Virus record (IMG/VR): IMGVR_UViG_3300042015_000154 | Span: 1 to 64,000 of that record | DNA length: 64,000 nt | Direction: 5' to 3' (one strand) | DNA from: a virus | In this document: positions 2,136 through 61,046 of the stretch, piece by piece | Numbering within the stretch: position 1 is the stretch's first letter | How the letters are laid out: the number at the start of each line of letters is the position of its first letter | The notes under the pieces: model-generated | Databases searched by the model: none | What the model saw: the letters and a program-made list of their open reading frames with translations, nothing else | What the model was told of the DNA's origin: nothing | Program-made: the position numbers and the translations under genes

Positions 2136-2138
2136 GCC

Positions 2139-5622: not shown

Positions 5623-5643
5623 CTCGCCCACAGGGGGCTTAGC

Positions 5644-10690: not shown

Positions 10691-10696
10691 CTGGTG

Positions 10697-10728
10697 GGGG
10701 CGGCGGCGCGGGTGCCCGCCGCCCCTTT
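10697..10728 (+). terminator. hairpin terminator, short T tract
   Basis: A 10-bp GC stem (GGGGCGGCGG, 10697-10706, with CCGCCGCCCC, 10716-10725), 9-base loop, then TTT. It may reduce readthrough into the primase-helicase gene. Confidence 0.6.
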
Positions 10729-10754
10729 AGTTCGCTACGTCACGCGGGGGAGCA

Positions 10755-15012: not shown

Positions 15013-15050
15013 GAAGGCCCGGTGCCCCCCTGCACCGGGCCTTCACTTTT
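15013..15050. terminator. strong terminator between convergent transcripts
   Basis: A 13-bp perfect stem (GAAGGCCCGGTGC, 15013-15025, with GCACCGGGCCTTC, 15032-15044), a 6-base loop and a T-rich tail (ACTTTTT). It ends the plus-strand replication transcript. The minus-strand giant gene stops right beside it. Confidence 0.88.
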
Positions 15051-47530: not shown

Positions 47531-47878
47531 GGTCTGGTCTCTCTGTCTGTCTGATGCGCGGATGCGCACAGGTAGGGTGACCGGGTGGGCGGAGAAGTCA
47601 AGACCCTACGGGGCTAGGAACCGAGGGGTGGAGGGGCGCCTAAACGGGGCGTATATACGGCGTTTAGAGGTACCCCTGTTTGAAATTTTTGGTTTGGAAT
47701 TCTCCACCACGTGAAGGAGGGGGGTGGGGGGTCGAAGTCCTTGGTCCACTGTGGGGGGTACCCCCTCCCCCTAAAGCCCATTAAATCGTTTTAATCCAAC
47801 CTTGTGAGGAAACGTTCCCCTGTGAGATGCTTTTCTCACGGCGAGGGCATCCCGTCCCGCCATTCCGGAGTGAACCTC
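47531..47878. other. divergent non-coding regulatory region
   Basis: This 348-bp stretch separates leftward late-type genes from rightward early genes. It holds an inverted repeat around a CGTATATACG palindrome (47650-47659), a GGGGGTACCCCC palindrome (47754-47765), the palindrome variant at 47781 and an inverted repeat GTGAGA...TCTCAC (47822-47839). No confident promoter could be placed. Confidence 0.6.
47781..47794. promoter_or_regulatory. 14-bp palindrome variant, copy 2
   Basis: TTAAATCGTTTTAA differs from the consensus by A-to-T at position 6, the same variant as copy 3. It is 84 bases before the ATG at 47879, farther than most copies. Confidence 0.75.
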
Positions 47879-48577
47879 ATGAACGCCAAGTCCACCAACG
47901 TTGTCTCCATCAATGCCAAGGGCGATAAGGCCCTCGCCGACAACGCCCACAAGGCCGACCGTATCGCGATCCTCGAAGCGATCGACACCGCGTCCGATCT
48001 GCTGGGCGCCTCGCTGCTCGAAGGGCTGCGCATGACGGCGCGCTTTGGCCTCACATCCAAGGCCGAGGTGGCCGAGGGCTGGACGCGCTGCAATAACCCG
48101 GACGTCTACGCGGCCAACTTCAACCGCGGCTACAAGGCCATGCAGATCGTCGGCGAAAAGCTGGCGCTCGAAGTCATCGACAAGGCCGAGCGCGCAGGCA
48201 CCACGGCCCGCAACGGTGGCGGCTACGTGCGCGCGCTGGCTGCCCTGAAGGCCATTTGCGACGAGGCCAAGTCGGCCGGCGTGAAGGAACTGACGGGGCG
48301 CAAGGCGACCGAGGCCGTGAAGGCGGCCGTCGCGTTCGCGGCCAAGCCCACGGCGAAGAAGTCCGCCACGCGTGCGCCGCAGGGCCCGACGACGGCCACG
48401 CTCGCAAAGGCCGCGCTCGCGATGGGCAATGGCCATGCCGAAATGGCCGCGTTCCTGAAGACGGCGAGCCATGCCGCCCAGCAGCTCCCAGTGCCTGAGG
48501 GTCGCGAGACGGCGCACCGCGATGCGCTCGAAGCGCTGGCCGATGCCGCCGAGGCGTTCTCGGTCTTCGCCCGCTGA
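47879..48577 (+). CDS. hypothetical Ala/Lys-rich early protein, 232 aa
   Basis: No family recognised. Long helices dominate. Residues 120-175 are Ala/Lys-rich with an AAKPTAKKSATRAPQG stretch similar to histone-like tails, so DNA binding is possible. GGAG at 47868-47871 precedes the ATG. It is the first rightward gene after the divergent region and is followed by a hairpin. Confidence 0.7.
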   Translation: MNAKSTNVVSINAKGDKALADNAHKADRIAILEAIDTASDLLGASLLEGLRMTARFGLTSKAEVAEGWTRCNNPDVYAANFNRGYKAMQIVGEKLALEVIDKAERAGTTARNGGGYVRALAALKAICDEAKSAGVKELTGRKATEAVKAAVAFAAKPTAKKSATRAPQGPTTATLAKAALAMGNGHAEMAAFLKTASHAAQQLPVPEGRETAHRDALEALADAAEAFSVFAR

Positions 48578-48585
48578 TCCCTCCT

Positions 48586-48610
48586 GCCGCCGGGCCCTAA
48601 ACCCGGCGGC
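48586..48610 (+). other. GC hairpin after the 232-aa gene
   Basis: A 9-bp stem (GCCGCCGGG, 48586-48594, with CCCGGCGGC, 48602-48610) and 7-base loop without a T tract. It could slow RNA decay or attenuate transcription into the next short gene. Confidence 0.5.
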
Positions 48611-48635
48611 TCACCCCGACTTAGAGGCTGCCGCT

Positions 48636-48764
48636 ATGATCCGTATATCCGCCACCTTTGCGCCCGGCTGTGATGTGCACCTGTTCGCCCAGAACTGGAG
48701 CATGGCGGGGCGCCTCGCCCGGTTCCTCATGACCGAGGGGGCGCAAGTCGTCTGCTTCGCGTAG
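48636..48764 (+). CDS. possible 42-aa protein
   Basis: A short frame (MIRISATFAPGCDVHLFAQN...) lies between a hairpin and a strong terminator, with AGAGG upstream of the ATG. Alpha-beta pattern and two cysteines. Its placement inside a closed unit supports it, but the length makes it uncertain. Confidence 0.45.
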   Translation: MIRISATFAPGCDVHLFAQNWSMAGRLARFLMTEGAQVVCFA

Positions 48765-48790
48765 ACCGGCCCGCAGCATCGAGACACAGA

Positions 48791-48815
48791 ACCCCGCCGC
48801 TTGGCGGGGTTTTTT
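48791..48815 (+). terminator. strong rho-independent terminator
   Basis: ACCCCGCC (48791-48798), loop GCTT, GGCGGGGT (48803-48810), then TTTTT. It ends the 47879-48764 transcript just before the AT-rich region. Confidence 0.9.
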
Positions 48816-48824
48816 GTGCCCGGA

Positions 48825-48838
48825 TTAAATCGTTTTAA
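48825..48838. promoter_or_regulatory. 14-bp palindrome variant, copy 3
   Basis: TTAAATCGTTTTAA, identical to copy 2. It sits between the strong terminator and the AT-rich non-coding region. Confidence 0.75.
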
Positions 48839-49325
48839 TCGCCCTGCCAATATGCGGCGTTTATGATAGGACGCGAATGCCACGGCCTCTTAGAACGTAT
48901 TACCGATGACCCCCACTTCGCAAAGGCAACGCGCCTAGCGGCAAGGGGGTGGCGCGGCGCCGCAATACAACAAAGGGGTGGGGCAAAAGCGGGGTCTGGG
49001 GGCTATATCGATAATATGGCCATAATTAGGGGTATATATATTAATTAAATAAGAATAAGAATATATATATATAGAGAATTACATTAAGACTATTTTCGCT
49101 CTAAAAAGACACACCCCCGTCTGCGATCCCCCGGCTCCCTCAAATCGGTTTGGCCCCTCAGAAGGTCCGGCCTCTGTTTTTGGAACTCATCTTTACCGGA
49201 CTAACTTTGCCCCTCCATCCCTCAGATGTTCCATGTTTACGCCCCTCAATCCCCCGTTTTACGACCCTGCTCCGCGCCGTCCTCTCCACCCCCAATTTGC
49301 CTAAAGCCTTTTTTCCATAACGCTA

Positions 49326-49353
49326 TTGCCTTTTCGCCTTGCCGTGGTATTGT
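49326..49353 (+). promoter_or_regulatory. putative promoter for gene 49406
   Basis: TTGCCT, 16-base spacer, TATTGT. The palindrome starts 27 bases after the -10 box, close to the 29-base distance seen at 50694 and 55343. Confidence 0.5.
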
Positions 49354-49380
49354 TTCGGTATATCGCGCTATATCGGCCAA

Positions 49381-49394
49381 TTAAAACGTTTTAG
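49381..49394. promoter_or_regulatory. 14-bp palindrome, copy 4
   Basis: TTAAAACGTTTTAG, running straight into the ribosome site AGGAGGA before the ATG at 49406. A protein bound here would cover the start of the mRNA region and the ribosome-site DNA. Confidence 0.85.
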
Positions 49395-49405
49395 GAGGAC
49401 ACCCC

Positions 49406-50359
49406 ATGAAGTCGCTACACGGCAAGCTCACCCCCGAAGAGATCCAGCAGCGCATCGACATGGCGACGCGGGGCATGCACCCAGACGCCACGACGATGGC
49501 CGCGATCAACCCAGTCGTTGCCGAAGGCCGCACCGGTGTCGAGACGTTCGCCGACAAGGCACGCCGCGAACGCGACGCACTGCGCGCAAGGGTGCTGGAC
49601 GACAGGCAGTGGCGGGGGCTGTCGTACCCGGAGCGGGTGGAGCTGTGCCGGCAGGCGCAGGTGCTGCCGCACGAGCCCGACATCATGCGGTTCGACCTGT
49701 ACCGGTCGATGGTGCCGCGTGAGTTCTCCCGGGACCGGTCGTCGCCGGCCGGCAAGCGCTACAACTCGCTGAGCGTGGCGGCGACGAAGGCGCGCAAGGC
49801 GCTGAGCCCGGAGCGGGCGGCGTATTGGGAGCAGTGCCGCGAGGCGCGCATGGCCGGTGGCTGGACGCAGCAGGGCGACCGCGCCGTGTGGGCGGTGCCC
49901 GAGCCCGTGCAGGACGCGCGCGAGGCGGCGCTACAGGCGCACGTCGAGGCCGGCACGCTGCCCGAGGATCCGATGCCGGGGGAGCGCAGCACTGAGGCGG
50001 TGGCGCTGCGACGTCGCGCCCACGCCGATCGGCAGGAGGTGAAGCGCCGGCTGGCGGCGAAGGTGAAGACCGACGAGCAGGCGGCACGCGACGACCGCGA
50101 GGCGTTGGCCATCGTGATGCGCGAGCTGGCCAGCGCGGCGCCCCTCGACCCCACGGCTGCGGCGAGGCTCGACGCCCTGCGTCGCCACGAGGCCGGCGCG
50201 GCCCAGTATGCGAAGAGCTACGCGCTGCGTGCGGCGGAGGACTTGGCCCTGATCCTGCGCATGGGGCGGCCGTGCCCCATCGCGTCGCGACACCGCTGTG
50301 GTGACGAGGTGATGCACCGTCGACCGCGGTTCTATCATTCCGACCGGGGGAGCATCTGA
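49406..50359 (+). CDS. hypothetical charged protein, 317 aa
   Basis: No family recognised. Very rich in Arg, Ala and Glu with long helices (ARDDREALAIVMRELAS...). The C-terminus has Cys/His residues (RPCPIASRHRCGDEVMHRR) that might bind metal. As the first gene after the AT-rich region, with an excellent ribosome site, it is likely among the first made in infection. Confidence 0.7.
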   Translation: MKSLHGKLTPEEIQQRIDMATRGMHPDATTMAAINPVVAEGRTGVETFADKARRERDALRARVLDDRQWRGLSYPERVELCRQAQVLPHEPDIMRFDLYRSMVPREFSRDRSSPAGKRYNSLSVAATKARKALSPERAAYWEQCREARMAGGWTQQGDRAVWAVPEPVQDAREAALQAHVEAGTLPEDPMPGERSTEAVALRRRAHADRQEVKRRLAAKVKTDEQAARDDREALAIVMRELASAAPLDPTAAARLDALRRHEAGAAQYAKSYALRAAEDLALILRMGRPCPIASRHRCGDEVMHRRPRFYHSDRGSI

Positions 50360-50360
50360 C

Positions 50361-50669
50361 GTGGGCGCGTCACAGGGTGGGCCTTGTCCCTTCAACCCTC
50401 CACGTATTCGCCGCACTGCACGCGAGGAACGCGAGTACATGACCCCGCACCCGATGGAGATCCTGTCGGGGGCGATGGAGAGGCACTGGATGGAATACAG
50501 GCAGCGCAGGCGTTTGGACGAACGCTTCGACTCTACCGTGTTCGGCGATGCCCGGATGCACGCCATCGGACAGATGATCGCGCAACGCCCACAGGGATGG
50601 CTGAGCGTTGACTTGGCGTGGCTCCGACTCATGGCCATCACGCGTCTCGACCGGTCGAAGTGTGATTGA
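50361..50669 (+). CDS. hypothetical basic protein, 102 aa
   Basis: GTG start one base after the previous stop; an internal ATG at 50439 is an alternative. Helical and Arg-rich, no family. Its TGA lies inside the -35 box of the following promoter. Confidence 0.6.
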   Translation: MGASQGGPCPFNPPRIRRTAREEREYMTPHPMEILSGAMERHWMEYRQRRRLDERFDSTVFGDARMHAIGQMIAQRPQGWLSVDLAWLRLMAITRLDRSKCD

Positions 50670-50694
50670 CACTTAACCCCACCTATGCGACAAT
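50666..50694 (+). promoter_or_regulatory. early promoter P1, one of three near-identical copies
   Basis: TTGACA, 17-base spacer, GACAAT with an upstream TG (extended -10). The stretch CTTAACCCCACCT in the spacer recurs in P2 (55315) and P3 (58495). The palindrome begins 29 bases after the -10 box. GTGGGG at 50705-50710 pairs with CCCCAC in the spacer. Confidence 0.8.
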
Positions 50695-50723
50695 GACGTT
50701 GTGAGTGGGGCGACCGTGCCCGA

Positions 50724-50737
50724 TTAAAACGTTTTAA
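50724..50737. promoter_or_regulatory. 14-bp palindrome, copy 5
   Basis: Perfect TTAAAACGTTTTAA, followed at once by the ribosome site AAGGGAGAG of gene 50751. Predicted position about +23 in the P1 transcript. Confidence 0.88.
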
Positions 50738-50750
50738 GGGAGAGACCATC

Positions 50751-51050
50751 ATGCGTAAGGAAGTCACGATCCAGCTCATCCCGTTGTTCGACGTCGTGCG
50801 CAGCCCTGACGACCCCGTGTCGATCGAGTGGGAAGTGGACGGGGCGTCGGGCTCGACGCAGTGCGAGGCATGGCGCGGGCAGCACGAGATCGAAGGACTC
50901 GAACGTGCGGGCCACACCATTGTGCGCATCACGGTGAACGGCATCGAGGTGTACAGCACGCTCAAGCTGAAGCCGGTTGACCTGAGCGAATGCGAGGGGC
51001 GCATCCACCCCGACACGCTCGACCACTACGCTGGCCGCGAGGGAGGCTGA
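50751..51050 (+). CDS. hypothetical early protein, 99 aa
   Basis: First gene of the P1 transcript. Beta-rich (VTIQLIPLFDVVRSPDDPVSIEWEVDG) and acidic. No family recognised. The shared leader GAGACCATC-ATG recurs before the genes at 56883 and 61069, so these start regions were copied together with the palindrome. Confidence 0.7.
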   Translation: MRKEVTIQLIPLFDVVRSPDDPVSIEWEVDGASGSTQCEAWRGQHEIEGLERAGHTIVRITVNGIEVYSTLKLKPVDLSECEGRIHPDTLDHYAGREGG

Positions 51051-51051
51051 C

Positions 51052-51285
51052 ATGGCCAAGTCCATCACCATCACGATCGACATCAGCGTGTACAACGTGC
51101 GCGCGTTTGTTCGTGCCGCACGGGAGCGGGCGCGCAAAGAGGGACTGGACGAAGAACAGGTGAGGGAGTACAGCGCGACCAACCTCACCGGCTGCGCCGT
51201 CATGCTGTTCGACCCGGGCTCGGGCCCCGCAGGCTGTGAGATCCAAGACAGCTCGGCCGAACGCAACGAAATGTTCGACGACTGA
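51052..51285 (+). CDS. hypothetical early protein, 77 aa
   Basis: Starts one base after the previous stop. An N-terminal strand (SITITIDISVYN) and a basic helix (VRAFVRAARERARKEGL) are followed by an acidic tail. No family recognised. Confidence 0.65.
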   Translation: MAKSITITIDISVYNVRAFVRAARERARKEGLDEEQVREYSATNLTGCAVMLFDPGSGPAGCEIQDSSAERNEMFDD

Positions 51286-51286
51286 C

Positions 51287-51541
51287 ATGATTATCCGCGA
51301 CGCCATCACCCTGTTCGCGATGATCGGCGAGCACCCCGACGCTCTGTTGGGTTTCCAAGAGGGGAGGCAGTGGACGTCGATTTATCATGCGCGCTGCCTG
51401 CAACGCGAGGACGCGGCGGGCAGTCAGATATACACGTTCGAGAACTTTGCCATGCTCGCGCTTCGGCAGCAGCTGACCCTCGTACTCGAACTCGACATGC
51501 CGCCAGAGTGCTCGCTCAACTGCCCGCTTTGCACCCACTAA
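51287..51541 (+). CDS. DxITxxA/CxxC family member 1, 84 aa
   Basis: Starts MIIRDAITLFAMIGE and ends in CPLC near the C-terminus, with a middle YHARC. These three sites define an eleven-member family in 51287-56605 that I do not recognise. The ATG is one base after the previous stop; upstream in-frame codons lie inside the previous gene. Its TAA is part of palindrome copy 6. Confidence 0.75.
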   Translation: MIIRDAITLFAMIGEHPDALLGFQEGRQWTSIYHARCLQREDAAGSQIYTFENFAMLALRQQLTLVLELDMPPECSLNCPLCTH

Positions 51542-51551
51542 AACGTTTTAA
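51538..51551. promoter_or_regulatory. 14-bp palindrome, copy 6
   Basis: CTAAAACGTTTTAA. The TAA stop of the previous gene (51539-51541) lies within it. It is 15 bases before the ATG at 51567. Confidence 0.85.
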
Positions 51552-51566
51552 TCACAGGAGTGCGCC

Positions 51567-52085
51567 ATGAACCAGCCCACCACCGACCAGCCCGTGCCGC
51601 CCCGCTACCGCATCGACCACAACCCCAGCCACTCCACCGTTGGCATCGATGCAGTGATGACTTATGCCGGCGGCTCGTACACCGAGGCATACCAGAAGTT
51701 CCGCGCCACCGATGCACTGGAGGGGGAGTACGTCACGATGTCGCAGTGGAACCGTCGCACCTGCGACTACGACGTCATGCACTCCAAGGCAGCCACGATG
51801 CACAAGAAGAACCCCGCCACCCCCGTGATCGAGAAGATGACGGCTCGCCCGGTCACCATCAAGTTCGGAATCCACGTGTCGCTCGAAGGTGACCTCGATG
51901 CGTGCGTCAACCACCCGCCGATCAACGTGCCGGTGACGCTGGAGGCGGTGCTCGAATCCATGAAGAACCTGTGCTTCATCGTCGAGACGGTCGCGCACCT
52001 GCAAGGCAAGGAACGCGAGCTGCTGCCGCAAGCGGAGACGGCGCGCTCTATCATCGCCGCGCTGCAGCCACGGGTGCGGCGGTGA
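51567..52085 (+). CDS. hypothetical early protein, 172 aa
   Basis: No family recognised. The N-terminal half has Tyr/Thr-rich segments. A central strand region (VTIKFGIHVSLEGDLDACVNHPP) and C-terminal helices follow. ACAGGAG precedes the ATG. It heads the module delimited by palindrome copies 6 and 7 but lacks the family motif of its neighbours. Confidence 0.7.
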   Translation: MNQPTTDQPVPPRYRIDHNPSHSTVGIDAVMTYAGGSYTEAYQKFRATDALEGEYVTMSQWNRRTCDYDVMHSKAATMHKKNPATPVIEKMTARPVTIKFGIHVSLEGDLDACVNHPPINVPVTLEAVLESMKNLCFIVETVAHLQGKERELLPQAETARSIIAALQPRVRR

Positions 52086-52088
52086 GTG

Positions 52089-52379
52089 ATGGACAAGGGT
52101 GCATACTTCATCGCGAAGGACGAGATCACGCTGATTGCGATACTCGGACAGGTGCCGGGCGACTGGCTGGTGCGGGAAGTGTCAACGCGTAATGGCGCCG
52201 ACGGATGCCGGTATGCGCGCGCCGATTGCGTGCTCGCACGCGGGTTTCTGTATGGGCGCTTCTATGCAATGCCGGAGCAAGTTGACCAGTGGGAAGTGTT
52301 TTGCAACGACAACCAGTTTGCGGAGGAACCCTGCTACTGCGAGGGCTCGGATCACAGATGTAATCAGGAACACCCATAG
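52089..52379 (+). CDS. DxITxxA/CxxC family member 2, 96 aa
   Basis: Motif KDEITLIAILGQ at residues 10-21, middle ARADC and a C-terminal CYCEGSDHRC. A GTG codon directly before the ATG gives an alternative start. It begins 3 bases after the previous stop. Extra cysteines (total six) suggest a metal site or disulphides. Confidence 0.72.
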   Translation: MDKGAYFIAKDEITLIAILGQVPGDWLVREVSTRNGADGCRYARADCVLARGFLYGRFYAMPEQVDQWEVFCNDNQFAEEPCYCEGSDHRCNQEHP

Positions 52380-52381
52380 TC

Positions 52382-52642
52382 ATGGACCTGCTCACTGCCA
52401 TCGCGCTCGCCCCCTCACAGCCCGACTGCTACGTGCTGGTGTACTGCGCTGCCTTCACCGACGGACCGAAGAATCGCGGCACGTACTACTGTCGGTTGGA
52501 CTGTTTCGAGCGTTTCGGCATCTCGACCTTCGTGACTGATATCGAAGAGTGCGAGTTTGTGCTCGTCAGCGGCGCTGAGAATTTCTACTGTACGTGCGGT
52601 GGGCCAAAGCTGCACCGTTTGGACCAACCCCACCCGAGGTGA
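52382..52642 (+). CDS. DxITxxA/CxxC family member 3, 86 aa
   Basis: Starts directly with MDLLTAIALAP, the shortest N-terminus of the family. Middle YCRLDC and C-terminal YCTCGGPKLH. Begins 2 bases after the previous stop. Function unknown. Confidence 0.72.
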   Translation: MDLLTAIALAPSQPDCYVLVYCAAFTDGPKNRGTYYCRLDCFERFGISTFVTDIEECEFVLVSGAENFYCTCGGPKLHRLDQPHPR

Positions 52643-52645
52643 CTT

Positions 52646-52936
52646 ATGCGCGTTGTAAATGACACCCTGACCGCGATCGCTTTGTCGAACCAGTACCCGG
52701 TGATGGTTGTTGGCGATTTCTCTTACTACGCCACGGTGCACGGTCACTGCGCGCAGAGCATCACGCTTTACGATGGCGACACGATCGCCCTATATACCGA
52801 CTGGCAGGAGTTTCAGCAGGCATACAACGACTTCCTCGCCGACAAGCGATACCGCGGCCTGTCGGACCACTTCATCTGTGTGTACTGCAAGCGGCGGATG
52901 CACGAGCCGACCGAACAGCTCGACCTGATCCGTTAA
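52646..52936 (+). CDS. DxITxxA/CxxC family member 4, 96 aa
   Basis: NDTLTAIALSNQYP near the start, middle VHGHC and a C-terminal ICVYCKRRMHE with a following histidine. Its N-terminal motif is most like member 3 (both LTAIAL), suggesting a recent duplication. Its stop TAA is part of palindrome copy 7. Confidence 0.73.
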   Translation: MRVVNDTLTAIALSNQYPVMVVGDFSYYATVHGHCAQSITLYDGDTIALYTDWQEFQQAYNDFLADKRYRGLSDHFICVYCKRRMHEPTEQLDLIR

Positions 52937-52946
52937 AACGTTTTAA
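52933..52946. promoter_or_regulatory. 14-bp palindrome, copy 7
   Basis: Perfect TTAAAACGTTTTAA including the stop codon of the previous gene (52934-52936). It is 13 bases before the ATG at 52960. Confidence 0.87.
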
Positions 52947-52959
52947 TCCAAGGTGTGCG

Positions 52960-53319
52960 ATGGATATCTCGACGTTCTATCATCGACCACTGGACGAGAT
53001 CACTCTGCTCGCCATCTCTCCCTATATGGACGCAGGCGACTGCATTGAGGTGATCTTCCCCGTCAGCAATAAACCCGTTAGCAAAAAGCGCAAGGGCATG
53101 GTGGTGGCTGGGTACGCTCGCGTGCATGCATGCTGTTACACAGATTTGCGAGAGGGGGTCGCGCCGCGCTCCCCGAGCTACGTGGACCGATTCAACAAGG
53201 CAACGGATAGATCCGGCGCAGAGCTGTTCCTACGAGACGGCAATTACTTTAGAGACGAACGCGACTTCTGCTGCCTGTGCTGGGGCATGATCAATACCAT
53301 TCCGGAGGCAAAATCATGA
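52960..53319 (+). CDS. DxITxxA/CxxC family member 5, 119 aa
   Basis: LDEITLLAISPYMD at residues 11-24, middle ARVHACC and C-terminal FCCLCWG. A Lys/Arg insertion (NKPVSKKRKG) is absent from other members. It heads the longest module, between copy 7 and promoter P2. Confidence 0.72.
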   Translation: MDISTFYHRPLDEITLLAISPYMDAGDCIEVIFPVSNKPVSKKRKGMVVAGYARVHACCYTDLREGVAPRSPSYVDRFNKATDRSGAELFLRDGNYFRDERDFCCLCWGMINTIPEAKS

Positions 53320-53492
53320 GCATCGGTGCCAACAACGAACAGGACTACGAGTCCTCCCTGCGCGAAGAGAACAAGGCCGCGCGTTTCTTCACCGTTCTCC
53401 TGCTGGCGATGTTCGCCGGCGGCGTGATCGGCTACACGTGGGGCGTGGGTGTCGGCGAGCGCAACGCCGTCATCGCATGCTGGAAGCGGTGA
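53316..53492 (+). CDS. 58-aa single-pass membrane protein
   Basis: An acidic N-terminus (MSIGANNEQDYESSLREENK) precedes one membrane helix (about 23-43, FFTVLLLAMFAGGVIGYTWG). ATGA overlap with the previous gene fixes the start. It ends in a GTGA overlap with the next family member. Role unknown. Confidence 0.68.
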   Translation: MSIGANNEQDYESSLREENKAARFFTVLLLAMFAGGVIGYTWGVGVGERNAVIACWKR

Positions 53493-53761
53493 TCATCCGC
53501 GACGAGCTGACGCTGATTGCGCTAGCGCCCACGCTTCCGTCGAACAGCGTGATCCGATTCGTGCTCGACGACGGAGCCGACGACTTCTTTGTTCGCGGGG
53601 ATTGCTATGCGGAAAGGGGGCGGGGGAATGGTGGCATGGCCGACGGACAGGAGATCACGGCCATCGAAATCGGAAACGTGTTTGAGGGGCAGACCTACAG
53701 CCGATTGTGCTTCTGCGGTAGGACGAGCGGAGCGCGGGAACTGAGGGAGTGCGGCCTATGA
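53489..53761 (+). CDS. DxITxxA/CxxC family member 6, 90 aa
   Basis: GTG 53489 overlaps the previous stop (GTGA) and gives M-IIRDELTLIALAP, matching the start of member 7 almost exactly; an ATG at 53477 is an alternative. Middle FVRGDC, C-terminal LCFCGRTSG. Members 6 and 7 share a nearly identical 5' sequence (ATCATCCGCGACGA), so they arose by recent tandem duplication. Confidence 0.75.
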   Translation: MIIRDELTLIALAPTLPSNSVIRFVLDDGADDFFVRGDCYAERGRGNGGMADGQEITAIEIGNVFEGQTYSRLCFCGRTSGARELRECGL

Positions 53762-54027
53762 TCATCCGCGACGAACTGACGCTGATCGCGGTGTGCGGTG
53801 CGCCTGACCTGCGCATCCGCATCACATGGAAAGGGTCGGGCGACTGGAGCCTCGCGCACGGTGAGTGCTGCACCCGCGACCCGCGCAACTGGGCGTCCAT
53901 TATCAGCTACCTCAATAGCAAGGGCACGGTGCTTCGCTCGGTCAAGCGCACCTCACGCGGTAAGATGCGATGCGTGTGGTGCCGCCAGCCCACGGACAAG
54001 CCGTACGATCCCGCTTTGGGGAAGTAA
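53758..54027 (+). CDS. DxITxxA/CxxC family member 7, 89 aa
   Basis: MIIRDELTLIAVCGAPD, middle LAHGECC and C-terminal MRCVWCRQP. The ATG overlaps the previous stop (ATGA). It is the closest relative of member 6 at the N-terminus while the rest has diverged. Confidence 0.76.
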   Translation: MIIRDELTLIAVCGAPDLRIRITWKGSGDWSLAHGECCTRDPRNWASIISYLNSKGTVLRSVKRTSRGKMRCVWCRQPTDKPYDPALGK

Positions 54028-54029
54028 TC

Positions 54030-54329
54030 ATGAAGACACCAAAGCGACAGGTCATGCGCATCCACGACGCGATCACGCTCTATGCGCTGGCCGCCGACCC
54101 GGACGTGCGCATCCGCGTGCAGTGGCTGGGCGGCAAGGTGGGGAGGTGGTCCTACTACCACGGCCCATGCGCAGTTGCAGCCGATGTTGTGCGACTCATC
54201 GACATCAACCCACAACGCGCTAGGCTGCACGCCGTGTGCAAGCAGCAGGATCGTTGGGCGCACTGGCGCGCAACGTGCTCCTATTGCCGCGCTGCGATCA
54301 ACCAGCCCTTCCCCGGAGCCGTGCCATGA
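54030..54329 (+). CDS. DxITxxA/CxxC family member 8, 99 aa
   Basis: RIHDAITLYALAADPDVRIRVQW aligns over a longer stretch with member 7 (AVCGAPDLRIRITW), middle YYHGPC and C-terminal TCSYCRAAI. Start ATG 54030 is 2 bases after the previous stop and ends in an ATGA overlap. Confidence 0.76.
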   Translation: MKTPKRQVMRIHDAITLYALAADPDVRIRVQWLGGKVGRWSYYHGPCAVAADVVRLIDINPQRARLHAVCKQQDRWAHWRATCSYCRAAINQPFPGAVP

Positions 54330-54760
54330 ACACCGAACCGCAACGCTTCCTCGTCCCCGACCTGCTCACGCTGATGGCGGTGTCGTCTGTGTATCCGCGT
54401 GCGTTCGTCGCCCCGGGCGCGACGAGCAAGCAGTTTTACTGCCTGCGAATCCTGATGGCCAGTGACTCGGCGATGGACAACTTCGAGACGTCGCGCCGCA
54501 TTCAGACATGGAGCACCAAGCGCAAGCAGTATGAAGACGTGATCCTGCCTATCATTCTGTACCCGACGTGGCGCGATGCGGACCTGATGGTGAACGAGTC
54601 GGGCAACGTCAAGTGCTACGCTTGCGGCCGCCTGCTGACCCAACACGGAGAAGACGATGGGCGACCAGACGATCGACCGGATGGCTTGGTGCCTCCGCAG
54701 CTACAAGAACGCAACGGCCAAGGGCCTTCCCGTCAGCGAGGACGTAAAGCGTACCGCTGA
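54326..54760 (+). CDS. DxITxxA/CxxC family member 9, 144 aa
   Basis: VPDLLTLMAVSSVYP at residues 10-24 and a CYACGRLLTQHGE zinc-knuckle-like block near 95. Beyond this it continues about 35 residues in a Pro/Arg/Gln-rich tail that overlaps the next gene by 104 bases. The tail is unlike its relatives and may be a frame extension after loss of a stop. Confidence 0.7.
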   Translation: MNTEPQRFLVPDLLTLMAVSSVYPRAFVAPGATSKQFYCLRILMASDSAMDNFETSRRIQTWSTKRKQYEDVILPIILYPTWRDADLMVNESGNVKCYACGRLLTQHGEDDGRPDDRPDGLVPPQLQERNGQGPSRQRGRKAYR

Positions 54761-54842
54761 GCGTGCGCTCGCCGAGTACGACCAGATGCGCGCCGACCAG
54801 CTCGCGCAGACGCAACAGACATCGTTCAAACCGAGGATCTAG
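54657..54842 (+). CDS. small helical protein, 61 aa
   Basis: MGDQTIDRMAWCLRSYKN... is helical and charged, with ribosome site GGAGAAG just upstream. It overlaps the tail of member 9 in another frame. No family recognised. The next frame starts 2 bases after its stop. Confidence 0.6.
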   Translation: MGDQTIDRMAWCLRSYKNATAKGLPVSEDVKRTAERALAEYDQMRADQLAQTQQTSFKPRI

Positions 54843-54844
54843 CC

Positions 54845-54994
54845 ATGCGAGTTGATCCGGTAACACTAGGCTTGCTGGCCGCGGCCGGCATCGCCTTCAT
54901 CTTTCAAGCCGTCGGTCCCGGGCTGTTCTTTGCCTTCTTCGGCGGGCTTGGCCTTTGGTCCGACTGGGAGATGCGTCATGACAAACGTTCTTAG
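54845..54994 (+). CDS. 49-aa membrane protein
   Basis: MRVDPVTLGLLAAAGIAFIF... has one long or two short hydrophobic helices (about 7-38) and a charged end (WEMRHDKRS). It starts 2 bases after the previous stop and overlaps the next gene by 17 bases. Function unknown. Confidence 0.55.
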   Translation: MRVDPVTLGLLAAAGIAFIFQAVGPGLFFAFFGGLGLWSDWEMRHDKRS

Positions 54995-55199
54995 CCTACG
55001 CACGCTGCGCCGCCTCATCCCCGAGCCCGTGCGCCCCTCCAAGCCGTGGCCGCTGCTACCCGGCGCGACGCGCCCCGAAGAGACGCAGGTACGCATGCGC
55101 GCGCAGTCACTGCTGACGGGCGAGCTGATCGGCGGCGCGTGCCCACCCCTGACCTACGAGCAGGCGTGCGACGTGTTGCGCTGGGCGGGTGAGAAATGA
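54978..55199 (+). CDS. hypothetical protein, 73 aa
   Basis: Basic and Pro-rich at the start (RTLRRLIPEPVRPSKPWPLLPG), then a helical end (YEQACDVLRWAGEK). GGGAG precedes ATG 54978. No family recognised. It ends in an ATGA overlap with the 40-residue membrane peptide. Confidence 0.6.
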   Translation: MTNVLSLRTLRRLIPEPVRPSKPWPLLPGATRPEETQVRMRAQSLLTGELIGGACPPLTYEQACDVLRWAGEK

Positions 55200-55318
55200 A
55201 GACCCTCGACGTCCTGATCACCCTGCCGTTCCTCGTGCTCGGATTCGTCTTCGAGTCCTGCTACCGGTCTTTCAAGGCAGGCCGCCTGCTGTGGCGCCGG
55301 TGGGCAAGCGTGGATTGA
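55196..55318 (+). CDS. 40-aa membrane peptide
   Basis: MKTLDVLITLPFLVLGFVFE begins a single hydrophobic helix followed by a basic tail (RSFKAGRLLWRRW). ATGA overlap with the previous gene supports it. Its TGA lies in the -35 box of promoter P2. Confidence 0.55.
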   Translation: MKTLDVLITLPFLVLGFVFESCYRSFKAGRLLWRRWASVD

Positions 55319-55343
55319 CTCTTAACCCCACCTGTGAGACAAT
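55315..55343 (+). promoter_or_regulatory. early promoter P2
   Basis: TTGACT, 17-base spacer (again CTTAACCCCACCT), GACAAT with TG upstream. CCCCACCTGTGAG (55327-55339) and CTCTCAGGTGGGG form an inverted repeat with one mismatch across the -10 box, which looks like an operator. Palindrome copy 8 begins 29 bases after the -10 box, as at P1. Confidence 0.82.
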
Positions 55344-55372
55344 ATGCTCTCAGGTGGGGAGTTCCACCCGGA

Positions 55373-55386
55373 TTAAAACGTTTTAA
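55373..55386. promoter_or_regulatory. 14-bp palindrome, copy 8
   Basis: Perfect TTAAAACGTTTTAA running into the ribosome site AAGGAG. Confidence 0.88.
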
Positions 55387-55398
55387 GGAGTGACCATC

Positions 55399-55788
55399 AT
55401 GCGCGTCATAGAAGAGCAAATGCTGGCGGCAATCGAGGACTACAAGAACTGGAAGTGCCGCAACACAGAAGTCCGCATCGACCCCGTGGTCGGGGGCAGC
55501 GAAGTCGAGGTGTACCTGCATGGACATCTCATCGCCAAGCGCTACTTCTTCGGTAGCGACAAGGCGTACATCGGCGAGTGGGAGATCTGCCTCTGTCGCT
55601 GGAATACACCGACGACCCGCTCGCGCCTGAACGCTATTATCGGCTCGCTGGCGAAGCTCGGACGTCCCGGCCAGTGGCCTAGCGGAGCAGGCGTGTCGAC
55701 GAACCGAGGCGTGATCACTCTGCGCGATGCGCGCGGCGAGACGACGATCGACTCATTCGACTGGCACAAGGTTGTGGTGCGGCTATGA
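55399..55788 (+). CDS. hypothetical early protein, 129 aa
   Basis: First gene of the P2 transcript. Alpha-beta protein with a cysteine/Trp strand (WEICLCRWNTPTTRSRL) and a C-terminal beta segment. No family recognised. ATG 55399 is preferred to the GTG at 55390 because of spacing from AAGGAG. It ends in an ATGA overlap. Confidence 0.68.
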   Translation: MRVIEEQMLAAIEDYKNWKCRNTEVRIDPVVGGSEVEVYLHGHLIAKRYFFGSDKAYIGEWEICLCRWNTPTTRSRLNAIIGSLAKLGRPGQWPSGAGVSTNRGVITLRDARGETTIDSFDWHKVVVRL

Positions 55789-56162
55789 GCTTCGACGGTA
55801 GCATCCAGCTGCCCGCGCTCGACGCGATCACCGTGATCGCCTGTCTCGGGAACTACCCGCTGGAGTCGACGACGGTGAAGTTCACACGCACCGGTATGCA
55901 GTTGTCCAAGGGATGGGTGCGGTACGCCGACGGCCAGACGAACGTGGAGAGCACCCAGTGCCTGAAGTGCGCATGCCTAGCGCGGGTGAGAGATCCGAAT
56001 AGCGACGGCCGCGAGGAATTCCTCCACGCGGTGTTGAATGGCTGGATCATCGTGCACGGGTTCGCACCGAAGTCGGACCTGTTCAAGTGCGCATGCCGCA
56101 TCCTGCCGGACCAGCGACCGCGAGCGAGGGGAACATGGGCCAAACCAACCCACCAGTTCTAG
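55785..56162 (+). CDS. DxITxxA/CxxC family member 10, 125 aa
   Basis: ALDAITVIACLGNYP at residues 11-25, a cysteine pair CLKCACL in the middle and FKCACRIL near the end. Compared with others, the middle motif has become a cysteine cluster. It overlaps member 11 by 28 bases. Confidence 0.74.
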   Translation: MSFDGSIQLPALDAITVIACLGNYPLESTTVKFTRTGMQLSKGWVRYADGQTNVESTQCLKCACLARVRDPNSDGREEFLHAVLNGWIIVHGFAPKSDLFKCACRILPDQRPRARGTWAKPTHQF

Positions 56163-56605
56163 ACCTGATCACGTTCCATGCGCTCAAGGGTGAGGACGCG
56201 GCGGGCTACCGTGTGTTCGCAAAACAGAAAAACCTAGCGCCGGACGTCTGGACGGCGTGGCGCAGCGAGCGCACGTGGTGCCGCGCCTGTGCGATCGTGG
56301 AAGCGGTGTACCGCGCAATTGCAGCGCATTCGCCTACGTTTAGCTGGACCCAGCTAGCTGGGGGAGTATTAGGCAGCGCAATTCACAACAGTGTCAGCTC
56401 GAAGGACATACTGGCCGAACTGGTGGGGGAAGATGACGGCACGAGCCCCTACGTCATCGCGCTGGCCAACCACGGCCGCTGCGACCTGTGCGGCAAGATC
56501 TTCGGCCACTTCCCCACCATCCCGCCGTCGTCGATGCAGATCACCGCGCCCGACCCGCACCGCCACGACACGTGGCGCAAGAAAAACCGCTGGAGGATTC
56601 GATGA
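56135..56605 (+). CDS. DxITxxA/CxxC family member 11, 156 aa
   Basis: VLDLITFHALKGED at residues 8-21, middle WCRACAI and C-terminal RCDLCGKIFGHFP. It is the longest member because of an insertion of about 45 residues (AIAAHSPTFSWTQLAGG...). The ATG at 56135 follows GCGAGGGG. Confidence 0.72.
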   Translation: MGQTNPPVLDLITFHALKGEDAAGYRVFAKQKNLAPDVWTAWRSERTWCRACAIVEAVYRAIAAHSPTFSWTQLAGGVLGSAIHNSVSSKDILAELVGEDDGTSPYVIALANHGRCDLCGKIFGHFPTIPPSSMQITAPDPHRHDTWRKKNRWRIR

Positions 56606-56850
56606 GGTTCAACTACTACCTGATCGCCCACAACCTGCCGCTCGACCCCACACCTCTGCCGGAGCCGAAGGTAGTGGCGTCGATCACGGTGGACCCCGCC
56701 TTCATCGGCAAGCTCAACCCGCACGAGCACCTGAAGGCGCTCGCCGGGAAGATGGGCCTGCTTGACTTCACCATCGAGTCGGCCGAAGCTCAGGACCGCC
56801 CGGGCTACCAGCTCGGCTTGCCGTTCCCGCGCCCGAGGAAGAAGCATTAA
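56602..56850 (+). CDS. hypothetical protein, 82 aa
   Basis: No family recognised. Pro-rich N-terminal half (LPLDPTPLPEPK), then a helix-strand unit. ATGA overlap with member 11. Its TAA falls inside palindrome copy 9. Confidence 0.65.
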   Translation: MRFNYYLIAHNLPLDPTPLPEPKVVASITVDPAFIGKLNPHEHLKALAGKMGLLDFTIESAEAQDRPGYQLGLPFPRPRKKH

Positions 56851-56860
56851 AACGTTTTAA
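56847..56860. promoter_or_regulatory. 14-bp palindrome, copy 9
   Basis: Perfect TTAAAACGTTTTAA including the stop codon of the previous gene (56848-56850), 22 bases before the ATG at 56883. The following CTTGTTCTGGAGAGACCATC closely matches the leader after copy 11. Confidence 0.88.
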
Positions 56861-56882
56861 CCCTTGTTCTGGAGAGACCATC

Positions 56883-57110
56883 ATGACCACGCGCAAGCTG
56901 ACCAAGCCGCAGAAGACTCTCGCCGCTATCATCGAGACCGAGGGTGCAACAATCCTCGCCTTCCGCAAGGCAACCAAACACCTGAAGGTGGACTTCACCT
57001 TCGACCAAGGGCAGAGCGTGCACACGCAGACCCTGCCCTATGGTGACCCCATCGGCTCGCGCTGGGAGGCCAACTTCCGCGCCGCCGTACGCCGCTGTAA
57101 ACCCAACTGA
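56883..57110 (+). CDS. small HicA-fold-like protein, 75 aa
   Basis: The pattern TKHLKVDFTFDQGQSVH ... LPYGDP ... RWEANFRAAVRR resembles small phage proteins with a HicA/dsRBD-like fold (KHYK-type strand followed by a helix with N-x-x-A-x-x-R). HicA family members can be RNases, but the catalytic histidine context is not certain here. Confidence 0.55.
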   Translation: MTTRKLTKPQKTLAAIIETEGATILAFRKATKHLKVDFTFDQGQSVHTQTLPYGDPIGSRWEANFRAAVRRCKPN

Positions 57111-57118
57111 GAGAAGCC

Positions 57119-58225
57119 ATGAACCCGAACCTTCCCGCCGTCGCAGCCTTGCTGACCGACTTCAAACTCACCGATGCGCAAAGTGCACTCTCGGCCGGCA
57201 GCGTGCTGGCTCGTGCCCTCTCCATCTCCATGCAGAACACCGCGCCCTACAACCTGCCGATCGACCAGACCCTGCCGGACAGCGACACGCGTGCCGAAGC
57301 GATCGCGGCCACGGTGCACCCGCACAACATCGCCAGCGCCCTGCTGTCCCTGCGCCATGCCGGTGTCGGCGTGCAGGGTGGCCTGCAGGTGTACGGCCCG
57401 ACCGGCTGGCAGCTGCTCGACCAGCTGGCCATCCCGATGGTGCAGGTGACCCTGCAGGCGGCGCCTCCGGCTCCCGCTCCCGCGCCTGCACCGGCTCCCG
57501 CTCCCGCGCCTGCACCGGCCCCGGCGCCCGCTCCGGCGCCTGCCGCGGCCTCGACCCCGATCGTGGACCCGTCGGCGCTGGTGGCGGCTGCGGTGGCCGG
57601 TGGCGAGCGGCCTATCATCGAAGGCTCGTCGCAGCGCATCACCACGCCGCAGGAGTTCGACGCGGCCCGGCAGGCGCAGGGCCACCCGCCGCTGGCCGGC
57701 GTCGTGAGCGGCTACGAGGCCGCCGTGGCCCCGGTGACCACGCAGGCAGCGCAGCCGGTGACGGTCCCCGCGCCGACCCCGCACGTGACGCACGCGCAGG
57801 CCGTGGCGGCCGCAGCGACGGCCCCGACCGAGGAAGTGGCCGGGCTGCCGGACCCGTCGGTGCTCAACGAGCGCACGGGCAAGAGCGGACGTCCGCAGAA
57901 GTCGCCGTTCGAGAAGAAGGTCGAGAAGCGCTCGAAGGTGGCCGCGCCGCCGTTCTGGTGGGAGTCGCTGCGCTACAGCCTGCCGCGCGTGTTCGTCGAC
58001 CACCCGGCGCAGGCGCTCGACCCCAGCTCCGACGGTGCGGGCCCGGTGCAGGCGTACATGGTCGGCATCGCGATCCTGCAGGAAGCGCTGCGCGCTGCCG
58101 ACGGCACGCTGACGGTCGCCCAGCTGCGTGCGTGGCTGCGCGAGGTGGAGACCGGCGTCACGGCGCTGGACGACTCCGCCGCGATCAACCAGCTCGTCGG
58201 CCACCTGTTCGGCAAGGCCGAGTAA
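57119..58225 (+). CDS. hypothetical protein with Ala-Pro repeat linker, 368 aa
   Basis: An N-terminal domain (1-110), then an almost perfect (Ala-Pro)n linker (about 115-141), a Pro/Ala/Val-rich middle and a helical C-terminal domain (about 275-368). No family recognised. The linker is coded by GC-rich CTCCCGCGCCTGCACCGG-type repeats that could expand or shrink. Such rigid linkers separate two domains. Confidence 0.7.
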   Translation: MNPNLPAVAALLTDFKLTDAQSALSAGSVLARALSISMQNTAPYNLPIDQTLPDSDTRAEAIAATVHPHNIASALLSLRHAGVGVQGGLQVYGPTGWQLLDQLAIPMVQVTLQAAPPAPAPAPAPAPAPAPAPAPAPAPAPAAASTPIVDPSALVAAAVAGGERPIIEGSSQRITTPQEFDAARQAQGHPPLAGVVSGYEAAVAPVTTQAAQPVTVPAPTPHVTHAQAVAAAATAPTEEVAGLPDPSVLNERTGKSGRPQKSPFEKKVEKRSKVAAPPFWWESLRYSLPRVFVDHPAQALDPSSDGAGPVQAYMVGIAILQEALRAADGTLTVAQLRAWLREVETGVTALDDSAAINQLVGHLFGKAE

Positions 58226-58267
58226 GACACACGGGCCACGGACGGCCCCCTTTCCGGAGTCACCCTC

Positions 58268-58498
58268 ATGGACCACATCGCCACCCGCGAGCACTACCTG
58301 CAGCAGCCGCTGACCCAGCAGCTGAAGATCGCCGAGCTGCTGTCGTACCTCGACCAGAACAAACACTCCTGCCGCTGCGTCATGGCAGGCGGTCGCGACT
58401 TCACCGTCATCGTCGGCGCCGGCTACTCCAGCGCCCGTTACTGGGCCGACAAGTTCGATCTCGAACTTCACACGGCGGCAGACGCCCACAGGAGTTGA
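58268..58498 (+). CDS. hypothetical protein, 76 aa
   Basis: No family recognised. Alpha-beta with a Cys pair (HSCRCVMAGGRDFTVIVGAG). CCGGAG precedes the ATG. Its TGA lies within the -35 box of P3. Confidence 0.65.
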   Translation: MDHIATREHYLQQPLTQQLKIAELLSYLDQNKHSCRCVMAGGRDFTVIVGAGYSSARYWADKFDLELHTAADAHRS

Positions 58499-58523
58499 CA
58501 CTTAACCCCACCTGTGCGACAAT
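58495..58523 (+). promoter_or_regulatory. early promoter P3
   Basis: TTGACA, 17-base spacer (CTTAACCCCACCT shared with P1 and P2), GACAAT with TG upstream. Palindrome copy 10 begins 34 bases after the -10 box. No matching right arm GGTGGGG is found here, unlike P2. Confidence 0.82.
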
Positions 58524-58557
58524 ATTCACACTGGATGCAACGTCCAGCCACCAACAA

Positions 58558-58571
58558 TTAAAACGTTTTAA
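58558..58571. promoter_or_regulatory. 14-bp palindrome, copy 10
   Basis: Perfect TTAAAACGTTTTAA running into AAGGA before the ATG of the MoxR-like gene at 58584. Confidence 0.88.
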
Positions 58572-58583
58572 GGAACCAACCTC

Positions 58584-59690
58584 ATGAGCACGAACGGTTA
58601 CCGCATCAAGGCCGACAAGATCGCCGACTACGCCTCCGTCTTCTACAACTCCGGTCGCACTCCCCTCTTCATCGGCCCGCCGGGCATCGCCAAGACCGCG
58701 TTCGTCCGAGTGGCTGCGAAGGAACTGGCCGCGCAGCGTGGCATCGAGTTCCTGCCGGTGCGCGAGCTGCACCTCGCTTCCATGTCGGAAGTCGACGTGC
58801 GTGGTTACCTGATCCCGGACGGCGACAAGGCCGTGTTCACCAAGCCCGAGTTCTGGGCGACGGTCGAGGCGCACCCCGAGGGTGGCATCCTGTTCCTCGA
58901 CGAGTTCGTGCAGGCCACGCACGAAGTGCAGAAGGCGATCGCCCCGCTGATCCTCGAAGGTCGCATCGGCGAGTACGTCCTGCCGCCGACGTGGCGCGTG
59001 TTCCTCGCCGGCAACGGTCTGGCCGATGGCGCCGGCGCCAACACGCTGCTGTCGCACATCATCAACCGCGTCGTGATCGTCGAGGTGGAAGCGCCTGACG
59101 CGGACGTGTGGATGGTGTGGGCGGCGGGCGAAGGCAACATGCCGTCGGAGCTGATCGCGTTCGCGATGTCGCAGCCGGCGGTCGTGTTCGAGCCCGACGT
59201 GTCGCAGCTGGGTCCGGATGAGCCGTTCTGCACGCCGCGCTCGCTGCATGCGGTCGGCGATCTGGCCAACGCGTTCCCCGGCGGTGTCGAGGGCATGGTC
59301 TCCGACCCGGTGGGCATGGCGTTCATGTCCGGTGCGATCGGCACGGCTGCAGCGTCCGCACTGGCGGTCTTCATCCGCATGGCGATCAGCCTGCCGAGCT
59401 ACGACGACATCGTGAACAAGCCGCTGCAGACCATCGTGCCGGATCGCGTCGACCAGCAGTACGCGATGGTGATCATGATCGCCTGCCGCGCCAAGCACGA
59501 GGATCTGCAGCCGCTGATGCAGTACCTCACCCGCTTCGACAACAACATGATCCTCACCGGCCTCGCCGCGCTGACGCGTCGCGACAAGACGATGACCCAC
59601 AACCAGTACGTGCTGGCGTGGATCATGGCCAACCAGACGCTGCTGGGCAAGTTCGCCAAGTACATCTCGAAGGCGGTGCGAGCATCATGA
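58584..59690 (+). CDS. MoxR-type AAA+ ATPase
   Basis: 368 residues. Walker A GPPGIAKT (31-38), Walker B GILFLDEF (D106, E107), a sensor-like FLAGNGLADGAG and an arginine-containing SHIINRVV segment fit the MoxR/CobS-like AAA+ group. These ATPases act as chaperones with VWA partners, and the next gene encodes exactly such a partner in an ATGA overlap. It is driven by P3. In phages the target of such modules is not known. Confidence 0.9.
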   Translation: MSTNGYRIKADKIADYASVFYNSGRTPLFIGPPGIAKTAFVRVAAKELAAQRGIEFLPVRELHLASMSEVDVRGYLIPDGDKAVFTKPEFWATVEAHPEGGILFLDEFVQATHEVQKAIAPLILEGRIGEYVLPPTWRVFLAGNGLADGAGANTLLSHIINRVVIVEVEAPDADVWMVWAAGEGNMPSELIAFAMSQPAVVFEPDVSQLGPDEPFCTPRSLHAVGDLANAFPGGVEGMVSDPVGMAFMSGAIGTAAASALAVFIRMAISLPSYDDIVNKPLQTIVPDRVDQQYAMVIMIACRAKHEDLQPLMQYLTRFDNNMILTGLAALTRRDKTMTHNQYVLAWIMANQTLLGKFAKYISKAVRAS

Positions 59691-60832
59691 GCACGAAGGC
59701 CAAATTCAACGAAGCGGTCACTGCACTGCTGATGACACAGCCGTTCTTTGGCCACCTGCTCCTGAAGATGAAGCACGTCGAGTGCGACACGTTGCGGCCG
59801 GCGACGATGGCGGTGTCGCGCACGACGATCTACTACCACCCGCAGCTGATCGCGGAGCTGGAGGTGGATTGCATCATGTTCATCCTCGCCCACGAGGTTG
59901 CGCACAAGGCGTTCGACCAGATCGAGCGCGCACGCCACTACCAGAAGTGCGGTACGGGGCCGGACGGCAAGCCGCTCGACTTCCACCTGTTCAACTGCGC
60001 GATGGACTACGTGGTCAATAGCGGACTGGAGGCGCAGGGCGTAGGGAAGTTCCCGGGCTTCGGCTGTCTCGACCAGCGATTCACGCACGAGATGACGCCC
60101 GAAGAGGTGTATTGCATCCTGAAGAAAGAGCAGGAGGACGGCAAGCGCAGCCCCGTCGGCGAGCCGATGGACGGCCACGACACCAGCGAGGGCGACGAAG
60201 AGCTGGACCCGATCACGCAGGCGGACGTCATCCAGTCTGCGGACAACCACCGCCGCCTGATGGGCAAGTACCCCGCCGGCATCGAGCGCCTGATCGGCGA
60301 GCTGAAGAAGCCGTCGATGTCGCCGTGGCGTCGCCTGCGTCAGTTCGTCACGACGAACCTGCCCGGGCACGATGCGTCGACGTGGCGTCGCCTGCAGCGC
60401 CGCCCGCTGGTGCGTGGCATCGGCATGCCGGGTCGCGTGCAGCAGGGTGCTGGTCGTGTGGGCGTCGTCGTCGACACGTCGGGCTCGATCGGGCAGGAGA
60501 TGCTGAACCTGTTCTCCGGCCACATGGCGGCGATCATGGACGACGCGATGCCGCGCGAGGTGTACGTGTACTGGGTGGATGCCGTCGTGCAGCGCCGGGA
60601 CATCGTGAAGAACGGCTCGCAGCTGCGCGCCCTGTTCTCGAAGCCCGTGCCCGGCGGTGGCGGCACCGACATGCCCCGCGGCGTTCGCGCTGCGGTGGAG
60701 GACAAGTGCGACGCTGTTGTCGTGCTAACCGACGGTTACACCGGGTTCGGCCAGAAGGAAACCAAGCCGGTGCTGTGGGCGATCACGTCGCACCAGATCA
60801 GCGCACCGCACGGCATCACCATCCACATCTGA
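59687..60832 (+). CDS. VWA-like protein with putative metallopeptidase domain (DUF2201 type)
   Basis: 381 residues. The N-terminal half carries a zincin motif H69-E70-V-A-H73 (LAHEVAHKAF), the C-terminal half a VWA MIDAS D263-T-S265-G-S267 (VVDTSGSIG) with later GGGGTDM and LTDGYTG. This is the DUF2201_N plus DUF2201 architecture. It should dock on the MoxR-like ATPase through the VWA domain. Whether it cleaves protein is unknown. Confidence 0.9.
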   Translation: MSTKAKFNEAVTALLMTQPFFGHLLLKMKHVECDTLRPATMAVSRTTIYYHPQLIAELEVDCIMFILAHEVAHKAFDQIERARHYQKCGTGPDGKPLDFHLFNCAMDYVVNSGLEAQGVGKFPGFGCLDQRFTHEMTPEEVYCILKKEQEDGKRSPVGEPMDGHDTSEGDEELDPITQADVIQSADNHRRLMGKYPAGIERLIGELKKPSMSPWRRLRQFVTTNLPGHDASTWRRLQRRPLVRGIGMPGRVQQGAGRVGVVVDTSGSIGQEMLNLFSGHMAAIMDDAMPREVYVYWVDAVVQRRDIVKNGSQLRALFSKPVPGGGGTDMPRGVRAAVEDKCDAVVVLTDGYTGFGQKETKPVLWAITSHQISAPHGITIHI

Positions 60833-60841
60833 GGTGCAATC

Positions 60842-61036
60842 ATGCCCAAGTTCAGTATCTACAAAGATCTGCGCCTGAAGGTGGAGGTGGAAGCCGACAC
60901 CGCACAAGAGGCGTACCAACAGCAGCTCATCATGGATGACAACGAGTTCGAGGTGCTGGAGTGTGATTATGAGGTCTACCTGCAGGACAGCGCGGGTGGC
61001 GACACCGAGTGTATCGACGACTACGACGCTGATTAA
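60842..61036 (+). CDS. small acidic protein, 64 aa
   Basis: Starts MPKFSIYKDLRLKVEVEADT and is strongly acidic at the end (ECIDDYDAD). It resembles small beta-alpha proteins of phages without known function. Its TAA lies in palindrome copy 11. Possibly a regulator or substrate of the MoxR-VWA pair by position. Confidence 0.65.
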   Translation: MPKFSIYKDLRLKVEVEADTAQEAYQQQLIMDDNEFEVLECDYEVYLQDSAGGDTECIDDYDAD

Positions 61037-61046
61037 AACGTTTTAA
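61033..61046. promoter_or_regulatory. 14-bp palindrome, copy 11
   Basis: Perfect TTAAAACGTTTTAA including the stop codon of the previous gene (61034-61036). The CCTCTTCTGGAGATACCATC after it parallels the leader after copy 9. Confidence 0.88.

Follow-up and report, generated by a model that had tools for sequence, protein, structure and literature searches.

Clusters of small early genes are a main source of host-shutdown and counter-defence proteins in phages, and the genes in such clusters are usually unrelated to one another. Among the closest described systems, the host takeover module of Bacillus phage SPO1 (genes 37-60) contains 26 mostly small early genes, which are numbered individually, have different targets and are not presented as one amplified family (PMC6873191), and the counter-defence gene tifA of phage T4 was found to be amplified by recombination (PMC9391042). 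Here we analyzed an array of eleven small, strongly diverged tandem genes in a stretch of 64,000 nt (the window; positions 1-64,000 of the IMG/VR virus record IMGVR_UViG_3300042015_000154, which has 64,039 bases). The array is found at the head of a rightward replication operon, and its genes almost certainly encode one shared protein family; we found nothing directly comparable in the literature on tandem arrays of this kind in phages.

All eleven frames (84-156 aa, plus strand) are present at the starts given by a first-pass annotation made from the sequence alone, and all carry the two motifs named there, an N-terminal D-x-[IL]-T-x-x-A and a C-terminal CxxC or CxC. When the 27 members known from two phages are aligned (the second phage is described below), three conserved places stand out: D-x-[LI]-T-[LI]-x-x-[LA] at the N-terminus, the motif [C/H/R]-x-x-C as the first pair (previously read as [HRD]-x-C), and the C-terminal CxxC or CxC. 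Five genes of the window have HxxC at the first pair, namely m1 (51287-51541, 84 aa; D-A-I-T-L-F-A, HARC, CPLC), m4 (52646-52936, 96 aa; D-T-L-T-A-I-A, HGHC, CVYC), m5 (52960-53319, 119 aa; D-E-I-T-L-L-A, HACC, CCLC), m7 (53758-54027, 89 aa; D-E-L-T-L-I-A, HGEC, CVWC) and m8 (54030-54329, 99 aa; D-A-I-T-L-Y-A, HGPC, CSYC). RxxC is found in three, m2 (52089-52379, 96 aa; D-E-I-T-L-I-A, RADC, CYC), m3 (52382-52642, 86 aa; D-L-L-T-A-I-A, RLDC, CTC) and m6 (53489-53761, 90 aa; D-E-L-T-L-I-A, RGDC, CFC), all of which carry CxC at the second pair. CxxC is found in m10 (55785-56162, 125 aa; D-A-I-T-V-I-A, CLKC), whose second pair is also CxC (CAC), and in m11 (56135-56605, 156 aa; D-L-I-T-F-H-A, CRAC, CDLC). 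The remaining gene, m9 (54326-54760, 144 aa; D-L-L-T-L-M-A, CYAC), has a degenerate first site (CLRI) that lacks the second Cys. Several genes are tightly packed: m6 has a GTG start that overlaps the preceding stop, the starts of m7 and m9 overlap the ends of m6 and m8, respectively (ATGA in both cases), and m11 starts within m10. Unrelated small genes interrupt the array, and repeated palindromes are found in its gaps.

We searched all stop-to-stop frames on both strands of the 64 kb with the regular expression D.[ILVM]T..A followed by C.{1,2}C, and it selected exactly these eleven frames and no others. This corresponds to 11 out of 490 window frames of at least 70 aa, as compared to a mean of 0.07 and a maximum of 1 in residue-shuffled frames (200 runs) and none of 2,319 frames from other phage loci. 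In a leave-one-out profile test of the full family (27 members in two phages; each target compared with 2,733 control frames and with 200 shuffles), 25 members rank first above all control frames. Among these, m1-m4 and m6-m9 rank first with E-values from 3e-8 to 5e-3 (1.9e-6, 2.2e-4, 8.1e-5, 5.8e-5, 5e-3, 4.2e-5, 3.3e-8 and 1.2e-4, respectively), and m10 and m11 rank first with marginal values (0.06 and 0.11). The two members that the profile did not recover are m5 (E 5.3) and n15 of the second phage. Using profiles built from the window alone gave a comparable outcome, with m5 and m11 weak. Because of the uniqueness of the motif match and the leave-one-out ranks, we regard the eleven genes as a real family, to which m5 is assigned by motifs and position. 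The earlier proposal of a tandem, strongly diverged homologous family is thus borne out by the profile tests for eight clear and two marginal members, and m5 is related to the others at the motif level only. Its statement that no described family could be recognised also agrees with our searches, as no sequence family of Pfam, PHROGs, PADLOC or PDB matches the members at significant score (the PHROGs scan covered all members except m11 and six from the second phage).

The second phage was identified by a search of viral contigs with the AAA ATPase encoded downstream of the array (58584-59690, plus strand; PHROG 1297, N4 gp24-like), which served as the syntenic anchor for finding relatives. One close relative was found, IMGVR_UViG_3300046523_000205 (L002), whose ATPase is 56% identical. 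Upstream of its ATPase, L002 contains about 16 small tandem genes (1743-7914; a few start codons are uncertain), typically with a D-x-L-T-L-x-x-L-A-Q-x-x-P-R-A N-terminus and two CxxC pairs. The array occupies the same slot in both phages, with the operon head on one side and the AAA ATPase on the other, and the flanks are colinear; rightward of the array the genes are 46-62% identical, and the first operon gene 28%. No array gene of the window gives a tblastn match in L002. With the window-only profile, the nine best matches in L002 are nine array genes (best E 2.5e-4), the three best matches of the L002 profile in the window are m9, m3 and m4, and hhalign aligns the two sets with an E-value of 1.4e-5 (probability 80%). 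Pairs with z>5 make up 31 of 120 within L002, 7 of 55 within the window and 2 of 176 between the phages. These last two pairs, n14-m9 (z 10.6) and n16-m10 (z 6.5), suggest that the ancestor of both phages already had an array, which each lineage then amplified on its own or homogenised.

Some pairs have conserved 5' ends and diverged bodies. Over 54 nt at their 5' ends, L002 n2 and n3 are 91% identical, including an identical run of 38 nt, and their bodies have an amino-acid identity of about 22%; m6 and m7 show the same in a weaker form. This may point to recombination at a conserved 5' module, with strong constraint there as the alternative, and it is only suggestive because the compared pairs were chosen as the most similar ones. 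Repeated unequal exchange would also be expected to produce the n2/n3 pattern if the array consisted of duplicates with little function that recombination between conserved 5' ends had produced and that were decaying slowly. We consider such decay distinctly unlikely, as all 27 frames are open (many with stop-start overlaps), the D, T and metal-type residues are kept in both phages despite a difference of about 40% in their other genes, and n12/n13 have a dN/dS below 1. We also considered a diversity-generating retroelement; no near-identical template/variable repeat pair is seen among the repeats listed, with the note that reverse transcriptase genes were not searched systematically.

We looked for further carriers in viral contigs, genome contigs and phages, using m6, other window members, L002 members, the ATPase, the gene at 56883 and the promoter DNA pattern as queries (as well as tblastn and blastn). 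None was found besides L002, which does not prove absence because the searches rely on short exact patterns.

Most of the 27 members retain both ligand pairs (the exceptions are n6, n12, n13, n15 and m9, plus the R-type m2, m3 and m6). CxxC predominates at the first pair in L002, where n14 and n16 have H in the first position. Zinc binding, previously proposed from the cysteines, is likely for these proteins, because C and H replace each other at the first ligand position, both among members and between phages; the RxxC/CxC members may be a separate group whose metal binding is altered or absent. The AlphaFold models of m7 (pLDDT 75, pTM 0.60) and L002 n4 (pLDDT 83, pTM 0.72) agree in a predicted order of a helix from the D motif, a strand, a strand and a helix from the first pair. 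No convincing fold match was found for either model (Foldseek against PDB and BFVD, and VIA-align; best Z 3.4), and the lack of a match does not show that the fold is new.

The profile search did give one hint of a nuclease, which would fit a scenario in which the family consists of remnants of HNH/endonuclease VII-type nucleases that lost the active site and were amplified as a binding scaffold. Endonuclease_7 (PF02945) matches L002 n4 with 18.6 bits (E 0.0018) over a stretch covering both CxxC pairs, which have a spacing similar to that of endonuclease VII, and n3 touches annotated HNH nucleases by tblastn (E ~1). However, the score is below the curated cut-off of 23.6 bits and comes from a single member out of the 27 scanned, the catalytic D-H-x-H motif is absent from all 27 aligned members, n4 included, and such nucleases are not listed by the fold searches, so that we find this origin very unlikely.

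The array is accompanied by repeated control-like elements. A sigma70-type promoter-like site (TTGACA-17-GACAAT) is found at 50666-50694 (plus strand), upstream of the first array genes, and a second, near-identical one at 55315-55343 (plus strand), upstream of m10 and m11. A third near-identical site is at 58495, and each of the three is followed by a palindrome after about 60 nt; L002 has its own repeated version of the promoter-like site (6474 and 9914) with the same layout as in the window. The operator-like palindrome TTAAAACGTTTTAA (unstranded) is found at 50724-50737 between the promoter-like site and the first gene, at 51538-51551 (1 mismatch) overlapping the m1 stop, at 52933-52946 overlapping the m4 stop, and at 55373-55386 downstream of the 55315 site. 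Allowing up to 2 mismatches, there are eleven such sites in window positions 1187-61046 (0 expected), ten of them within 47781-61046 and mostly just 5' of a ribosome-binding site. L002 contains the palindrome TTAAAACCATTTTAA seven times at comparable positions, and none is seen in the more distant relatives. The palindrome looks like an operator or an RNA-level control element; Rfam has no match in the window.

Together with these palindromes and promoter-like sites in and around the array, the best sub-threshold PDB profile matches, which are zinc-finger chains, raise the possibility that the small zinc proteins act on phage or host transcription, binding RNA polymerase or DNA to time expression, perhaps via the palindrome and the promoters. 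Proteins with two CxxC pairs often bind nucleic acid or polymerase. But the PDB matches are weak and cysteine-driven, the isoelectric points of the array proteins span 4.5-10.0 and thus give no common basic surface, and a number of 11-16 diverged copies is large for a single regulatory task. We therefore consider a role in transcription unlikely.

We favour another function, and give it about an even chance: the array would serve host takeover or counter-defence, as the first-pass annotation also suggested, through small zinc-stabilised binding proteins, amplified separately in each lineage. This reading is favoured because of the promoter-like sites, the position at the operon head, the small size of the genes, the lineage-specific amplification, the conserved frame combined with a variable body, and the spread of isoelectric points. 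The array genes would be transcribed early, probably from host-type promoters at the operon head. In each protein, the conserved D would open an N-terminal helix, two strands would come next, and a second helix would begin at [C/H]-x-x-C; the first pair and the C-terminal CxxC/CxC would form one zinc site that stabilises the small frame. Elsewhere the chain could vary freely, so that each copy would display a different surface and might bind a different host protein as a takeover or counter-defence factor. Duplication would maintain and diversify the copies, and recombination at the conserved 5' end may contribute.

Several observations weigh against this proposal. PADLOC gave one weak match only, and no member resembles a known inhibitor. 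The best alignable pair has a dN/dS of about 0.34 (0.41/1.21), which indicates purifying selection, and with two carriers only, the family does not allow positive selection to be told apart from relaxed constraint. In addition, zinc binding is possibly not universal, because n12 and n13 lost a Cys of the second site, n6 lost one of the first site, and m2, m3 and m6 have R at the first site.

We also examined the slot in more distant relatives, fetched by ATPase identity (28-36%). Three of them, L003 (Rhizobium phage RHph_TM3_14A; array at 9995-13371) and the IMG/VR contigs L007 (4510-8199) and L012 (4562-8172), have this slot upstream of their AAA ATPase filled by another tandem array of small proteins, with the motif EHxARAMLLGxxY...DADTLEPL. 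In each of these AMLLG arrays 6-8 members are linked by pairwise comparison, and the AMLLG profile has 18, 9 and 8 matches in L003, L007 and L012, respectively, some of them outside the slot. As in the window, these are tandem diverged small proteins with a conserved N-terminal part and a variable C-terminal part, whereas their sequence is unrelated, their motif is another one and they have no cysteine frame. Homology to the window family was rejected (hhalign probability 0.4%), and the AMLLG family has no Pfam or PHROG match. L005, L006, L009-L011 and L013 show no array, or pairs only, by pairwise comparison, which misses diverged arrays and links only three genes even in the window. It is conceivable, but doubtful at present, that in this phage group the region 5' of the AAA ATPase gene is a slot set aside for diversification. 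Each lineage would fill it with 7-18 copies of a small frame of its own, unrelated to that of the others (a zinc frame in the window and the AMLLG frame in Rhizobium-type relatives), and would combine a conserved N-terminal module with swapped bodies to give a binder repertoire. If so, the binder repertoire of a phage would resemble a variable-gene cluster.

The window belongs to a tailed phage, probably a podovirus, with genes for DNA polymerase, helicase, primase/helicase, internal virion protein, head-tail adaptor, terminase and tail fibre. A 2,541-aa frame (15050-22675, minus strand) is very large and likely encodes a virion protein. The window genes at 61033 and 2936 come one after the other, in this order, in L002 (12575 and 17501). 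The rightward operon appears to run from about 49 kb through the window end to about 15 kb, because of the colinearity with L002 and the strand, with the right end continuing into the left end. Just 5' of this operon there is an AT-rich island (49020-49080; tatatatattaattaaataagaataag...) in a genome of 65% GC. A conserved gene at 56602-56850 (plus strand; 54% identical in L002) marks the right boundary of the array, and it is followed by the conserved KLTKPQKTL gene (56883-57110, plus strand; 61% identical in L002) and by a conserved gene with a long Pro-Ala repeat linker (57119-58225; PAPAPAP...), which has 58% identity to the corresponding L002 gene over 161 residues. Immediately 3' of the AAA ATPase is a gene with a DUF2201 putative metallopeptidase and a VWA-like domain (59618-60832); the AAA ATPase/VWA pairing is reminiscent of N4-like phages.

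In T4 tifA, too, recombination multiplies a small counter-defence gene, as proposed for the array, although the tifA copies are recent copies of one gene that arose in laboratory evolution and not 11-16 strongly diverged ones. Since the family is defined, it can be tested member by member, and it offers a way to ask how one scaffold yields many phage binders. To our knowledge, no CxxC frame is known in the host takeover module of SPO1. What the array shares with that module is a dense block of mostly small genes away from the structural genes, beside sites that resemble early-type promoters in sequence. Unlike the SPO1 module, it is dominated by one amplified, previously undescribed family, with a single frame accounting for most of the cluster in both phages and a different frame in the same slot in their relatives.

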